DNA from: Brevibacillus composti
GTDB lineage: Bacteria > Bacillota > Bacilli > Brevibacillales > Brevibacillaceae
Length of the DNA stretch: 64,000 nucleotides
Assembly: GCF_016406105.1 (NCBI RefSeq)
Contig: NZ_CP066308.1
Location: forward strand, 1,709,501 to 1,773,500
Direction: 5' to 3'
Shown here: piece after piece, positions 22,726 through 39,533 of the stretch
Numbering within the stretch: the first letter of the stretch is position 1
How the letters are laid out: each line of letters opens with the position of its first letter
Translations under genes and position numbers: made by a program
The notes under the pieces: model-generated
The model's input: only the letters and a program-made list of their open reading frames with translations
The model's database searches: none
Told to the model about the DNA's origin: nothing

Positions 22726-23508
22726 TTGGCAAAGGGCGCCATTTCGCTGCGCTACGTCCTGGAGGGAACAGGCCATGATGTGGTATTGATTCATGGATTG
22801 GGCCAAAGGCTGGAAGATTGGGATGTGCAAAAAGAGGCGTTGGTCAACAATGGGTACCGTGTATTGACCTTTGATTTGAGAGGACATGGCGAGTCGGAAT
22901 GGACCGCGGAAGAGGTGAATATCCGGACCTATGCGCATGACCTGAACCGGTTGTTGTGTCAGTTGTCGATTGATAGGGCGCATCTGGTTGGGCTGTCCAT
23001 GGGAGGCGCCATCGCGCAAATGTTTTATCGGGACTTTCCGGAAAAGGTTCAGACGCTTGTTCTCGCCGCCACATTTTCCTACTTTCCCGAAAATATGAAA
23101 CAGTCCAGCTTGGAGAGCCGACTCTCTTACATCGATCAGGGGAAAATGGAAGAGTTGGCTGAGTTGATTGCGAGACGGTCGTTTACCGAGAATGCTCCGA
23201 TCGAGTTGATCGAGAACATGAAAAAGACCATCGCTGATAATCATCTTGCCGCTTACAGAGGCTCCATGATCGCCTCCATAAATGCGGACAGCAGAGAGTA
23301 TTTGGCAGAAATCGAAGTGCCTGTTCTCATCATCGTGGGAGAGGGAGACCTGACAACTCCCCTGGCATGCAGCCAGTATCTGCACCAGCATATAAAAAAC
23401 TCCCGCTTGGTGGTAATACCCGAAGCACGGCATATGCTAACGCAGGAACGACCGGACTCATTCAATCGGGAGCTGCTGCAATTTTTGCGTGAAATGCGTG
23501 AACGATGA
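22726..23508 (+). CDS. Alpha/beta-hydrolase fold protein
   Basis: 260-residue serine hydrolase. The oxyanion segment is IHGLGQRLEDW, the nucleophile elbow is GLSMGGAIAQ, the acid is the aspartate in VGEGDLTTP and the histidine lies in PEARHMLTQERP. It resembles the 3-oxoadipate enol-lactonase/MenH-like group. The start is TTG with GAGGAG upstream, six bases after livM, so it is the last gene of the operon. It may release the imported acid from an ester or lactone, or hydrolyse a pathway thioester; substrate unknown. Confidence 0.8.
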   Translation: MAKGAISLRYVLEGTGHDVVLIHGLGQRLEDWDVQKEALVNNGYRVLTFDLRGHGESEWTAEEVNIRTYAHDLNRLLCQLSIDRAHLVGLSMGGAIAQMFYRDFPEKVQTLVLAATFSYFPENMKQSSLESRLSYIDQGKMEELAELIARRSFTENAPIELIENMKKTIADNHLAAYRGSMIASINADSREYLAEIEVPVLIIVGEGDLTTPLACSQYLHQHIKNSRLVVIPEARHMLTQERPDSFNRELLQFLREMRER

Positions 23509-23556
23509 CAGCATGTCGGTATCCCTCTCAGCGCCGGATCCCGATTGATCATGTTC

Positions 23557-23585
23557 TTGACGTGTTTCATGGAATTCTTTACAAT
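23557..23585 (+). promoter_or_regulatory. Sigma-A promoter of the hom transcript
   Basis: TTGACG, a 17-base spacer and TACAAT. Transcription should begin about 20 bases before the first SAM aptamer. Confidence 0.75.
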
Positions 23586-23608
23586 GAAAGCGAAACAGGT
23601 TACCACCA

Positions 23609-23777
23609 TTCTTATCCAGAGAGGCAGAGGGACTGGCCCGATGAAGCCCGGCAACCGTCGCGTTCGCGCGACAAGGTGCCAATTCCTGCAAGACGATTTG
23701 TCGTCTTGGCAGATAAGAAGCGAGAGCATGTGCGTATGTAAAGCCGGCCTTCTTCTTGTCTGAAGAGGGTTTTTTTA
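23609..23777 (+). promoter_or_regulatory. SAM-I (S-box) riboswitch 1 with its own terminator
   Basis: S-box aptamer: P1 is TTCTTATC (23609-23616) with GATAAGAA (23712-23719). The conserved core is AGAGAGGCAGAGGGACTGGC, then CCCGATGAAGCCCGGCAACC and the AAGGTGCCAATTCCTGC element. A terminator follows, CCTTCTTC with GAAGAGGG and eight T residues. The 3' side of P1 can pair with the terminator 5' arm, giving the classical antiterminator switch: SAM binding stops transcription. Confidence 0.92.
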
Positions 23778-23796
23778 TTACCAAAAAATATACAGC

Positions 23797-23958
23797 TTTC
23801 TTATCCAGAGAGGCGGAGGGACTGGCCCGATGAAGCCCGGCAACCGTCACGTTCAGCGTGACAAGGTGCCAATTCCTGCAGGACGCTTGAAGTGTCCTGA
23901 AAGATAAGAAGGAGGCCCCCGTCTCTACACAAGCCTTCTTCTGCGGAAGAGGGCTTTT
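23797..23958 (+). promoter_or_regulatory. SAM-I (S-box) riboswitch 2 with its own terminator, in tandem with the first
   Basis: Second S-box, nearly identical in the core to the first. P1 is TTTCTTATC with GATAAG (23903-23908). The terminator is AAGCCTTCTTC with GAAGAGGGCTT and a short T-run at 23955-23958. No promoter was found between the two elements, so one transcript must pass both to reach hom. Confidence 0.92.
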
Positions 23959-23996
23959 CCGCTTTCTGGGTCTGAAAGAAAAAGGAGTGTTTGGCG

Positions 23997-26769
<2,773 letters not shown>

Positions 26770-26892
26770 GGTGAGTGGTCCCCTTCGCTAGAAAAGAACT
26801 GACCACTGACAAACAAACAAACAAGCCTTCCCGCATATGGATGTATCGAGGGGATCGCCCCGAAAAAAAGCGAGGTCGGTCAGGTGGTTATG

Positions 26893-27006
26893 ATGTTTCG
26901 TCCAAGGGGAAAAATTTCCGCCCGAATCATCCTGAACGAAGCGCTGGATGCACTCGCGCTGGCTGTATCGGTCGGCACAAAGGAATTGTGGTTTCCACCT
27001 GAATAA
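26893..27006 (+). CDS. Possible 37-residue protein between glpK and glpD
   Basis: A frame starting MFRPRGKISARIILNEALDA and ending KELWFPPE is preceded by AGGTGG five bases before the second of two adjacent ATG codons. The middle is helical in character. No family is recognised and it may not be real. It lies in the 363-base gap between glpK and glpD. Confidence 0.35.
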   Translation: MFRPRGKISARIILNEALDALALAVSVGTKELWFPPE

Positions 27007-27050
27007 TTGAAAATAGGGAAGAGATGAGGAGATACCCCTTTGAGAAGGCG

Positions 27051-27076
27051 GCTTGCCCGATGGCAGGCAGTCTTTT
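27051..27076 (+). terminator. Terminator-like hairpin in the glpD leader
   Basis: GCTTGCC pairs with GGCAGGC (one G-U pair) across a four-base loop and is followed by AGTCTTTTT, 58 bases before glpD. In B. subtilis the glpD leader terminator is overcome by GlpP with glycerol-3-phosphate. A similar attenuator is inferred here. Confidence 0.5.
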
Positions 27077-27133
27077 TCATGGGGGGTTTTTGTTTGTCAA
27101 AACGTCTGGCGCGAGCCGGAAAGGAGGCTTACT

Positions 27134-28807
27134 GTGGGAAACCCGTTTTCAGCGCGAACCAGACAGAATGATCTGCAAGAGATGGAAAAAGAGACGCTCG
27201 ACCTGCTCGTCATCGGCGGCGGCATCACGGGAGCAGGGATCGCCCTCGATGCGAGCAAGCGGGGAATCCGCGTGGGATTGGTGGAAAAGAATGATTTTGG
27301 GTCCGGCACCAGCAGCCGTTCGACGAAGCTGATCCACGGCGGACTGCGCTATCTGAAACAGGGGGAAGTGAAGCTGGTCCGGGAGGTGGGGCGCGAACGG
27401 GCCATTTTGTATCAAAACGCTCCGCATCTGGTCATCCCGGCCCCGATGCTGCTGCCGATCTATCAGGGCGGCTCGTATGGGTACTGGGCCACCTCGATCG
27501 GGCTGTTCATCTACGATGTCCTGGCCGGCGTGGCCCGCAGAGAGAGGCGGAACATGCTGGGCAAAGAGGAGACGCTGGCCCATGAGCCTTTGCTCAAAGG
27601 GGAAGGGCTGAAAGGCGGAGGCCTCTATGTTGAATACCGGACCGATGATGCCCGGCTGACGCTGGATATTCTGAAAACGGCTGCAGGACTGGGGGCAAAA
27701 GCGGTCAATTACGCAGAGGCCGGCTCTTTTCTCTACGAGGACGGCAGGCTGAAGGGGATCATGGTGACCGACCGTCTGTCAGGAAAACAATACGCCCTCA
27801 AAGCCAAACATGTGGTGAATGCCGCCGGTCCATGGGTAGACCGCGTGCGCCAGATGGACGGTTCCCTGGAGGGCAAACGGCTGTATTTGACAAAAGGGGT
27901 GCATCTGGTCGTCTCGGCGGAGCGCTTGCCTGTGAGGCAATCCGCTTATTTTGATACCCCGGACGGGCGCATGGTCTTCGTCATTCCGCGGGGGAAAATC
28001 ACCTACATCGGGACGACCGATACGTCCTACCGCCACTCGATTGACGAGCCGAGAACGACGGCGGCAGATCGCGACTACCTGCTGCGGGCCGTAAACAGCA
28101 TGTTTCCCACGGTCCATCTGCGAACCGAAGATGTCCTGTCCCATTGGGCAGGGCTGCGGCCGCTGATCTACGAAGAGGGGAAAGGGGCGTCCGAACTGTC
28201 CCGCAAGGACGAAATCTTCCACTCGTCGACCGGATTGATTACGATCGCCGGCGGGAAGCTGACAGGCTTTCGGAAGATGGCGGAAAAAGTGGTGAATTTG
28301 GTCGCGCGGAAACTGCAGGCGGAGGAAGGCAAGAGATATCCCGGATGCTCCACCGACGCGATCGTGATCAGCGGCGGAGAGAGACACGGCTACGACAATT
28401 ACGCGGAGTGGAAGCGGGAAATGCATCGCCTGGGCACAGATCTAGGCGTAGATGCTGACACGGCCTGGGAGTGGATCGACACGTACGGCACCAATACGCT
28501 GAGGATCTACGAGCGCATCGATCGCATCAGTGCAAGCGGGAATGCGGATAGTCTGCTGGCTGCTCAAATCCGTTACGCGATTGAGGAGGAGAGGACTGTC
28601 CGTGCGCTGGATTTTCTTCGGCTGCGTACCGGATGGACGTATTTTCAAGTGGAGAAGGCCGAAGCCGAAAAGGAGCGGGTGATCCGTCTGATGGCCGAGG
28701 AGCTGGGGTGGTCCGCAGAAGAAGCGGCCAGACAGCGGGAAGAAGCCGAGCGTTACCTGCATGCGTTGAAACATCTCCCGCCCACAGATGAGGAGGTCCC
28801 CCGTTGA
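27134..28807 (+). CDS. glpD: Glycerol-3-phosphate dehydrogenase, FAD-dependent aerobic type
   Basis: 557-residue flavoprotein that oxidises glycerol-3-phosphate to dihydroxyacetone phosphate at the membrane. The FAD-binding motif LLVIGGGITGAGIALDAS is near residue 25. It is followed by GTSSRSTKLIHGGLRYL, VNAAGPWVD, YIGTTDT and a C-terminal GITIAGGKLTGFRKMAE-like segment (read as LITIAGGKLTGFRKMAEKV), then the DAO_C domain. The start is GTG with AAAGGAGG ahead. It follows glpK after an attenuator-like leader; no glpF or glpP is in the window. Confidence 0.95.
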   Translation: MGNPFSARTRQNDLQEMEKETLDLLVIGGGITGAGIALDASKRGIRVGLVEKNDFGSGTSSRSTKLIHGGLRYLKQGEVKLVREVGRERAILYQNAPHLVIPAPMLLPIYQGGSYGYWATSIGLFIYDVLAGVARRERRNMLGKEETLAHEPLLKGEGLKGGGLYVEYRTDDARLTLDILKTAAGLGAKAVNYAEAGSFLYEDGRLKGIMVTDRLSGKQYALKAKHVVNAAGPWVDRVRQMDGSLEGKRLYLTKGVHLVVSAERLPVRQSAYFDTPDGRMVFVIPRGKITYIGTTDTSYRHSIDEPRTTAADRDYLLRAVNSMFPTVHLRTEDVLSHWAGLRPLIYEEGKGASELSRKDEIFHSSTGLITIAGGKLTGFRKMAEKVVNLVARKLQAEEGKRYPGCSTDAIVISGGERHGYDNYAEWKREMHRLGTDLGVDADTAWEWIDTYGTNTLRIYERIDRISASGNADSLLAAQIRYAIEEERTVRALDFLRLRTGWTYFQVEKAEAEKERVIRLMAEELGWSAEEAARQREEAERYLHALKHLPPTDEEVPR

Positions 28808-30337: not shown

Positions 30338-31816
30338 GGTTTCCTCTTCTTGAAAGCGCTTTATTTTTGTATGATTCCTTTCTTCCACTCGATTTTTGCC
30401 TCATCCGCGAAGGGCTTTTAAGGCCAGCCCGGTAGGGCTGCTTTGATATGACCCGTGCAACAGGCGGATCGTCCCGTTTATATAGCCTTTTGCCTGCTCT
30501 TTCACTTCCCGTAGCAAGTCCTTCACTCGGACCATTGGGTTGGGCTGTAACACTTGCTTCTTCGCTATCGCCTGGCCGCTCAAACGACTTCCCTCTTGTC
30601 GTGCCATAATGGCTCGCAACATCGCTTGTACTCCCCGTACACTCCAACTGTAGCCGCCTCGTTTGGTCCTTTTTGCCATCACCCGCATTTGCGCTTCCGC
30701 ACTCCCCATTGGACGCATGCCCGTCGTGTCGATACCAGCTTCACCCAGAACCTTTCGATAGTCGATAAGATGCCTTCGATGCCGCCGTAAATAGGCCACG
30801 TATTTCCGCCATTCGTTCCGGTGCTCTTCCAGAATCTTTTCCTCCGGTACGGACTCTACTGTCGCCAGCAAGATATCCGCTTCAAAGGCCGCCAACGCCT
30901 GCCTTACCGTCTGCCACGTCTCTGGCAACTGACCCAGGAATCGGCGCAATTCTCGCGCCACATGAAAGCGATCCAGTGTGTAAATACAGCGGTGAAAGTA
31001 GGATTCGCATTCTCCAATCCAATTGGCCCCATCCCCATTGACTACGATCCATGTGTTTTCATCCATGTCGTAATGACGAACCAGAAAGTCGCCAAACCCT
31101 TCCCAGAACTCTCCCTTCGTCGTATGCAGGTAATGGCGTTTCGACCTAAGCCGCACTCGGTCCCCCTCTTGTTCCCATCCTTCGTGCACAATCGCCATTC
31201 GATTTTCCATTCCCCGCTGGCGTTGCCTCTGCAATGAGGTGTAAAGTCCATCCACTTCCACAAACAATACGCGAACCGACCTTCGGGTCGCTTTCGACAC
31301 GATGGTTGATGCTTGTTCAACCCGCGTGATTAGTTTGTCCCGAATGGCCTCATGGCTCAGTACCCGATACCCCAGTAACGCTTCCAAGCGTTTTGCGCTG
31401 TCCCGGTACGAGGGGCCTTGGCTAGCAAATTCGATCGCTATCTCTTCCAAAAACGGGCTTAGCTTCTCCCGCCCGTCAAAGGCCAGCATACGATCCAACA
31501 AATACACATGTTGACCCTTCACGCGATCCTGATACAATCGCCGTTTGAATCGAACCGTACCAAAGAGTGTGTCGATCTGGACTTCTCGTTGGTCCTTTAG
31601 CCGAAAGCGTGAATGATCCCGTTGATGCATCAGATACTCGTCCAACGCTTCCAAAATATAAGCCATACCGGCAGCGAACTGTTCCTGCAACGTTCGAAAC
31701 AACAACGTTTCAAGCTCTTTCATTGTGGGAAATTCCGTGGTAAACTTGCTCACAGGGTTTCTCCTCCTTGGTGTGTTTGGTTTTGGCGCTTTACACTTTA
31801 CCAAGAAGAGAAGCCC
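30338..31816 (-). mobile_element. ISLre2-family insertion sequence
   Basis: A single transposase gene sits between flanking imperfect inverted repeats: GGTTTCCTCTTCTTG (30338-30352) and the complement of CAAGAAGAGAAGCCC (31802-31816), matching at 12 of 15 positions. These are offered as the likely termini, giving about 1.48 kb. No clear target-site duplication was found, so the ends are provisional. It lies between ccdC and an MFS gene and does not visibly break either. Confidence 0.6.
30401..31753 (-). CDS. ISLre2-family transposase (UPF0236)
   Basis: 450-residue transposase, apparently full length. Recognisable UPF0236/ISLre2 features are an N-terminal REVQIDTLFGTVRFKRRLYQ segment, RVLFVEVDGLYTSLQRQRQR with acidic active-site candidates, IVVNGDGANWIGE and YTLDRFHVARELRRFLGQLP. 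The start is GTG 31753, supported by AAGGAGGAG; upstream in-frame codons lack a ribosome site. With no frameshift or internal stop the element is potentially active. Confidence 0.9.
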   Translation of the reverse strand: MSKFTTEFPTMKELETLLFRTLQEQFAAGMAYILEALDEYLMHQRDHSRFRLKDQREVQIDTLFGTVRFKRRLYQDRVKGQHVYLLDRMLAFDGREKLSPFLEEIAIEFASQGPSYRDSAKRLEALLGYRVLSHEAIRDKLITRVEQASTIVSKATRRSVRVLFVEVDGLYTSLQRQRQRGMENRMAIVHEGWEQEGDRVRLRSKRHYLHTTKGEFWEGFGDFLVRHYDMDENTWIVVNGDGANWIGECESYFHRCIYTLDRFHVARELRRFLGQLPETWQTVRQALAAFEADILLATVESVPEEKILEEHRNEWRKYVAYLRRHRRHLIDYRKVLGEAGIDTTGMRPMGSAEAQMRVMAKRTKRGGYSWSVRGVQAMLRAIMARQEGSRLSGQAIAKKQVLQPNPMVRVKDLLREVKEQAKGYINGTIRLLHGSYQSSPTGLALKALRG

Positions 31817-39338: not shown

Positions 39339-39533
39339 AACAAGATCCTGCGATGTGCGTAAGGCTCTAAATGTTTCTAACCTTATACGTATGATCTGGG
39401 AGACAGAACTTCACGGATATGTCAGGCCCACCTCCCGACGGGACGCATGGGAAGGCAGACACGTGGACGGGTCACCCACCTGTGTGAGCGCAGGTTATAG
39501 AAACATGAGGTCGGACGGCAGAGCGGGTTTTTT
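39339..39533 (+). ncRNA. ssrS: Stand-alone structured RNA, probable 6S RNA
   Basis: About 195 bases with its own promoter, no plausible coding frame and a terminal T-run. The ends form an interrupted closing stem: CCTGC (39347-39351) with GCGGG (39523-39527), and ATGTTTCTA (39371-39379) with TAGAAACAT (39498-39506), extended by CCT/AGG. The 5' start CCTGCGATGTGCGTAAGG resembles the 6S closing-stem strand. Size, rod-like fold and open central region suit 6S RNA, which binds sigma-A polymerase. Identification is by pattern only and a different RNA is possible. Confidence 0.45.

Follow-up and report, generated by a model that had tools for sequence, protein, structure and literature searches.

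The window analyzed here is a stretch of 64,000 nucleotides of the Brevibacillus composti genome, in which a hom gene for homoserine dehydrogenase is closely followed by glpK and is preceded on the same strand by two SAM-I aptamers arranged in series, each with its own predicted antiterminator and terminator. The features are collected in Table 1 along with two other elements of the window, a 6S RNA and a transposase-like reading frame.

Table 1. Features of the hom leader, of the genes behind it and of two other elements of the window (positions are those of the window)
Feature	Position	Strand	Evidence and remarks
Sigma-A-like promoter TTGACG-17-TACAAT	23557-23585	+	consensus scan; 5′ of unit 1
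SAM-I aptamer, unit 1	23609-23719	+	RF00162, 98.4 bits, E 1.4e-22, model 1-108 of 108
Antiterminator 1 (predicted)	23710-23762	+	P1 3′ strand pairs with terminator 1 5′ arm; -21.2 kcal/mol, z -3.17
Terminator 1 and U run (predicted)	23746-23776	+	hairpin 23746-23771, -13.6 kcal/mol, z -3.03; in terminator scan
SAM-I aptamer, unit 2	23798-23910	+	RF00162, 100.4 bits, E 3.8e-23, model 1-108 of 108
Antiterminator 2 (predicted)	23907-23942	+	-14.0 kcal/mol, z -1.84; 12 of 200 shuffles as good
Terminator 2 (predicted)	about 23931-23958	+	hairpin about 23931-23956, -17.5 kcal/mol, z -3.49; interrupted U-tract UUUUCC
hom, homoserine dehydrogenase	23991-25253	+	NF004976, 429.7 bits; ATG at 23997 also a possible start
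glpK, glycerol kinase	25276-26769	+	TIGR01311, 740.6 bits; possibly cotranscribed with hom under SAM control
467-aa ORF	30401-31804	-	transposase-like by look of sequence
6S RNA	39342-39533		73.7 bits (gathering score 46.4)

The two aptamers were tracked by cmscan against Rfam 15, where both are full-length matches to RF00162 on the plus strand and both lie far above the gathering score of this family (44.4). They are separated by a linker of 78 nt and can be aligned with each other across aptamer and platform, and the ORF list gives no plus-strand ORF of at least 80 aa in the hom leader. The first-pass annotation had placed two SAM-I riboswitches in series ahead of hom, and both parts of that statement are borne out, the riboswitches by the paired matches and the gene by its NF004976 score. 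That one aptamer, or two overlapping ones, had been counted twice by chance or as an annotation artefact has no point in its support and can be put aside with near certainty, since the aptamers are separate and complete at the given distance and score, both were recovered again in a separate whole-genome search, and the pair is kept at 24 of 24 hom loci.

The whole genome carries 12 SAM-I aptamers, among which the hom tandem is the only close pair on the same strand. A divergent SAM-I pair is also present in this genome, at G000:C1:828236-828388 (minus strand) and 828611-828755 (plus strand), with a spacing of 222 nt. The plasmid search matched 23 records, none of them reaching 80% query coverage, and among those listed the matches are short and fall on aptamer parts of the query. 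Patterns for the pocket and pseudoknot segments, namely P1/J1-2, CAACC, GGUGCCAAUUCC and the 3′ GAU, fit all 48 units of the 24 hom leaders, and within these segments lie the residues which we take to touch SAM in the pocket.

Promoter and expression platforms

The promoter-like site of Table 1 is the only one on the plus strand within 23200-24400. A site of the same kind, with TTGACG, a 17-nt spacer and a -10 element ending 20-23 nt before unit 1, is the best upstream site at 23 of the 24 hom loci, and at the remaining one (L043) the scan gave another site of equal score while TTGACG-18-TACAAT is visible by eye. Within the window's linker the best match is 7/12, and 99 of 100 mononucleotide shuffles do as well; over the 24 loci the mean match is 7.5/12 in the linkers against 10.0 upstream, and with 100 such shuffles per locus the lowest fraction as good is 0.25, in L014. 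With a single promoter-like site upstream and nothing comparable in the linkers, both units lie on one transcript by the measure of consensus scans, which agrees with the earlier statement that no promoter lies between them. It is very improbable that the units are independently promoted on two separate transcripts, as no point was found in favour of this and the linker scores, both in the window and as a mean over the loci, stand against it.

In unit 1 the 5′ arm of terminator 1 is shared by an antiterminator fold and a terminator fold which are mutually exclusive. Mutually exclusive folds are present in unit 2 as well, in a weaker form, as seen from the z-score of antiterminator 2 and the short U-tract. 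Terminator 2 is absent from the simple terminator scan because its tail reads UUUUCC. When the 24 hom leaders were searched, all 48 units proved to be followed by a terminator-like hairpin and a T-rich tail; the printed T counts are lowered in some rows, mostly of unit 1, where an over-extended helix was chosen. The statement that each aptamer is followed by its own terminator is in keeping with the z-scores of both hairpins, with the qualification that the U-tract of terminator 2 is poor: the T count after it is 4 of 8, the lowest among the second units (5-7 in the other 23) and also among the lowest of all 48 units.

Because of this poor U-tract, and because antiterminator 2 barely beats the shuffles, the second switch may have only a weak effect in this species. 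It could even be that unit 1 alone terminates efficiently, that unit 2 is a weak or decaying copy here and that the leader works approximately as a single switch. This is favoured by the tail of terminator 2, which the scan missed, and by the low z-score of antiterminator 2, but it is set against an aptamer 2 which outscores aptamer 1, a terminator 2 stem which is strong, and a unit 2 which the other 23 loci keep with 5-7 T among the first 8 bases past the stem; we therefore consider it improbable and retain two working units as the preferred reading.

Conservation and history of the two units

The conservation sample comprised all 24 hom loci of this type with their 48 units. The type occurs in 23 of the 26 genomes of the genus and in 1 of the 13 other family genomes searched, the family being represented by 39 genomes and an order-wide search giving the same 39. 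Three genomes of the genus (G014, G015 and G016) are without the hom gene itself and not without the switch alone. The Hom proteins of the 24 genomes have 60 to 80% identity to the window Hom, and the homologues of named genomes filed as L049-L127 are distant (38-49% identity). Two SAM-I aptamers lie 5′ of hom in every one of the 24 genomes having this type. Conservation in relatives had been proposed as a check on the tandem and was thus observed, and because the pair is kept throughout these genomes the tandem is not due to chance.

In the tree of the 48 units the labels of unit 1 and unit 2 change 4 times, as compared with 16 times in shuffles. A clean split would need only one change, and the four changes count against the tandem explanation; a single clade of first units is not rejected (p-AU 0.32). 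Long branches are seen for L013_u2, L018_u2 and both units of L043. By this tree the two units largely form separate lineages, and for this reason the duplication is most likely older than the genus. A recent duplication special to this genome was ruled out, the pair being present at 24 of 24 loci and the units clustering by position.

One difference between the units is conserved. At the tip of P2 (consensus GAGGGA), the first position of the loop is U in unit 1 of 18 of the 24 loci (L016, L018-L024 and L026-L035) and in unit 2 of none, and both units of the window have A. The U-bearing pattern is found once each in 20 of the 39 family genomes, in 18 of them at hom unit 1 and in 2 elsewhere (G033, G038). 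A repeated origin of this A-to-U change in unit 1 was considered and rejected, as the hom tree holds it as a single change. We take this loop position to be A24 of the Thermoanaerobacter aptamer. In the bound structure A24 forms the (A85-U64)-A24 triple, according to PMC9580860, and the literature search for a SAM-I riboswitch with A24U found no paper in the collection searched.

The P3 hairpins of unit 1 and unit 2 have a similarity of 0.712 when both belong to the same genome and of 0.641 when they belong to other genomes (24 genomes, 0 of 5000 permutations), and for 12 representatives of the 24 the values are 0.771 and 0.670 (again 0 of 5000). P4 gave no within-genome excess (1358 of 5000 in the 24 genomes and 1271 of 5000 in the 12 representatives), nor did the platform (400 of 5000 and 715 of 5000, respectively), and the P2 segment gave a slight one (99 of 5000, 24 genomes). 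The simplest reading, which we put forward only as a lead, suggests that P3 was homogenised by local gene conversion between the tandem aptamers. The likeness of P3 between the units of one genome is visible, for example, in L016 and L025.

hom, glpK and the neighbouring elements

Two hom genes are present in the genome and the window copy is the second paralogue. The window Hom has no Pfam ACT match. Its C-terminal domain was also considered as a hidden ACT domain and this found no support, there being no Pfam match and hhalign giving a probability of 0.1% against the C-terminus of the paralogue, a result limited by the small alignments. The other hom gene, at G000:C1:3023498, bears an ACT domain (PF01842, 29.5 bits) and adjoins ORFs which by the look of their sequences resemble threonine synthase and a small ACT protein; the 3957-base stretch taken as this locus gave no Rfam match. 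None of the 11 loci of the other paralogue that were examined has a SAM-I pair, and in 2 of the 11 (L045, L047) a single SAM-I element lies somewhere in the stretch. The window Hom is probably a methionine-branch enzyme free of threonine feedback.

The start of glpK lies 22 nt after the stop of hom (gap 25254-25275), and neither a promoter nor a terminator was found in this gap. The promoter search of 24900-27300 likewise found none, and within the final 400 nt of hom the best candidate for an internal glpK promoter reaches 7/12 and does not surpass the shuffles, in a scan which would miss weak or activator-dependent promoters. The scan for cre-like patterns gave no site in the gap, the nearest being at 26459 within glpK. 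This glpK is the only one of the genome at E below 1e-120.

A glpK gene comes next after hom at 6 of the 24 hom loci, with a spacing of 22 nt in the window, 101 nt in L014 and about 130 nt in L022, L023 and L032, and with an overlap in L015. In two further genomes, G003 and G025, hom and glpK are separated by a glpP-type and a glpF-type gene. The search of 10 genomes for a MIP-family (glpF) gene found none in G000 (the genome of the window), G004 and G021, in which glpK is close behind hom or overlaps it, and none in G014. Between glpK and glpD of the window there is no intact glpP gene; a degraded glpP-like remnant at about 26812-27003 matches the GlpP of G021 in pieces, with 69% over 32 aa at E 1.9e-8 and 53% over 38 aa at E 1.1e-4, and the sole PF04309 protein of the genome is located elsewhere.

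SAM may thus gate glycerol kinase, because glpK lies so closely behind hom and the scans gave neither a promoter nor a terminator in between. We put it forward tentatively, at somewhat under even chances, that the tandem controls a hom-glpK operon here and in the two nearest sampled relatives and that SAM gates the only close glycerol kinase. If this is true, the loss of glycerol-specific control would have put glycerol use under a methionine-pathway switch, that is, once a pathway-specific regulator was lost, glycerol use would have been rewired to a riboswitch that senses an unrelated metabolite. The literature search linking a SAM riboswitch with glpK gave a single review, which is on a different topic.

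A cobalamin riboswitch lies upstream within 1.5 kb at 8 of the 24 hom loci, at 389-701 nt from the SAM pair. At nine loci (L020, L024, L027, L029, L030, L031, L033, L034 and L035) the stretch upstream of the SAM pair holds a small conserved ORF, 44 aa in most, whose product has paired cysteines and a WCGY motif and looks like a tiny metal-binding protein. The ORF lies 3′ of the cobalamin riboswitch in 8 of the 9, and L029 is without a cobalamin match. With this ORF in between, and with a promoter-like site that belongs to the SAM pair, the two kinds of riboswitch probably do not share a leader in this genus.

Expected SAM response and published tandems

Taken with the folds and the conservation, the leader is very probably a tandem of the pseudo-cooperative kind, made up of two complete SAM-I (S-box) riboswitches that act by transcription termination. 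For SAM binding and termination we infer the following course. RNA polymerase would start from the upstream promoter and reach unit 1, where bound SAM would let P1 sequester the antiterminator strand, so that terminator 1 can form and end transcription near 23776. When SAM is not bound, antiterminator 1 would form and the polymerase would continue to unit 2, which would repeat the same decision, and hom would be reached only by those transcripts which pass both units. The output would then be the product of two read-through probabilities, with less leak and a steeper and narrower response to SAM.

The dose response was considered by simple arithmetic, with the off-switches taken as independent. 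To bring the output from 90% down to 10%, the ligand must rise 81-fold with a single switch and 40-fold with two switches of equal affinity; this range climbs to 75-fold when the affinities differ 100-fold, and none of the ratios tried, up to 100, brought it to 81-fold. The factors of maximal repression multiply, as when 10-fold becomes 100-fold at 10% leak each, and the loss in the on-state multiplies too across two units in series. The tighter shut-off which had been proposed for the pair is thus plausible, as residual read-through would multiply across the units. The wider response range proposed along with it does not follow on the ligand axis, because the two-switch range never exceeded that of the single switch in the cases tried, and the published view (PMC9481103) is also of a narrower range.

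The pair could instead grade the response by two thresholds, with aptamers that differ clearly in SAM affinity or kinetics. The conserved unit-specific U at the position equated with A24, a member of the base triple described above, speaks in favour of this, but both units of the window carry A, the U of the 18 genomes goes back to one change on the hom tree and not to repeated selection, and unequal affinities gave no range wider than that of a single switch. Two thresholds are on this account unlikely, though less so than a leader with only one effective unit, and the pseudo-cooperative tandem is kept as the preferred explanation.

The tandem SAM-I arrangement is already published and the hom locus is one member of it. 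In the main text of PMC9481103, 164 double and one triple SAM-I riboswitches are counted and predicted to be pseudo-cooperative, with a narrower ligand range and a more digital response; these are likewise at least two complete SAM-I switches before one gene, and the hom tandem does not differ from them in kind. The words homoserine, hom and Brevibacillus are absent from this main text, and the literature search for a tandem S-box, or a tandem SAM riboswitch in Brevibacillus, found no paper in the collection searched. That tandems of one aptamer class are uncommon, as the first-pass annotation had it, holds only in a relative sense, given the 164 published doubles and a tandem which is a fixed trait of this hom family.

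A close published case is hom1 in Bacillota, for which the main text of PMC12452182 gives, among contiguous cases, SAM SAM in 30%, Cobalamin SAM SAM in 9% and T-box T-box in 61%. Pairs of SAM riboswitches lie upstream there as here and hom1 is also monocistronic there, whereas the window hom has glpK close behind; Brevibacillus and glpK are absent from that main text. As to the Cobalamin SAM SAM order of the same source, the cobalamin element is set apart from the two SAM switches in this genus by a short ORF and by a promoter-like site of their own. Among tandems with other ligands, those of TPP riboswitches, which serve as the natural example in the main text of PMC9481103, also join two complete switches for one ligand with a steeper response, but belong to another ligand and aptamer class. 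The Bacillus clausii metE tandem of SAM-I and AdoCbl riboswitches, as cited in that main text, likewise joins a SAM-I off-switch to another off-switch in series; it responds to two ligands as a NOR gate, whereas the hom tandem would sense the same ligand twice.

The hom tandem adds a well-conserved family to the described class of tandem SAM-I riboswitches. As both units are kept in 24 genomes, this family also provides a natural test set in which unit 1 and unit 2 can be directly compared.
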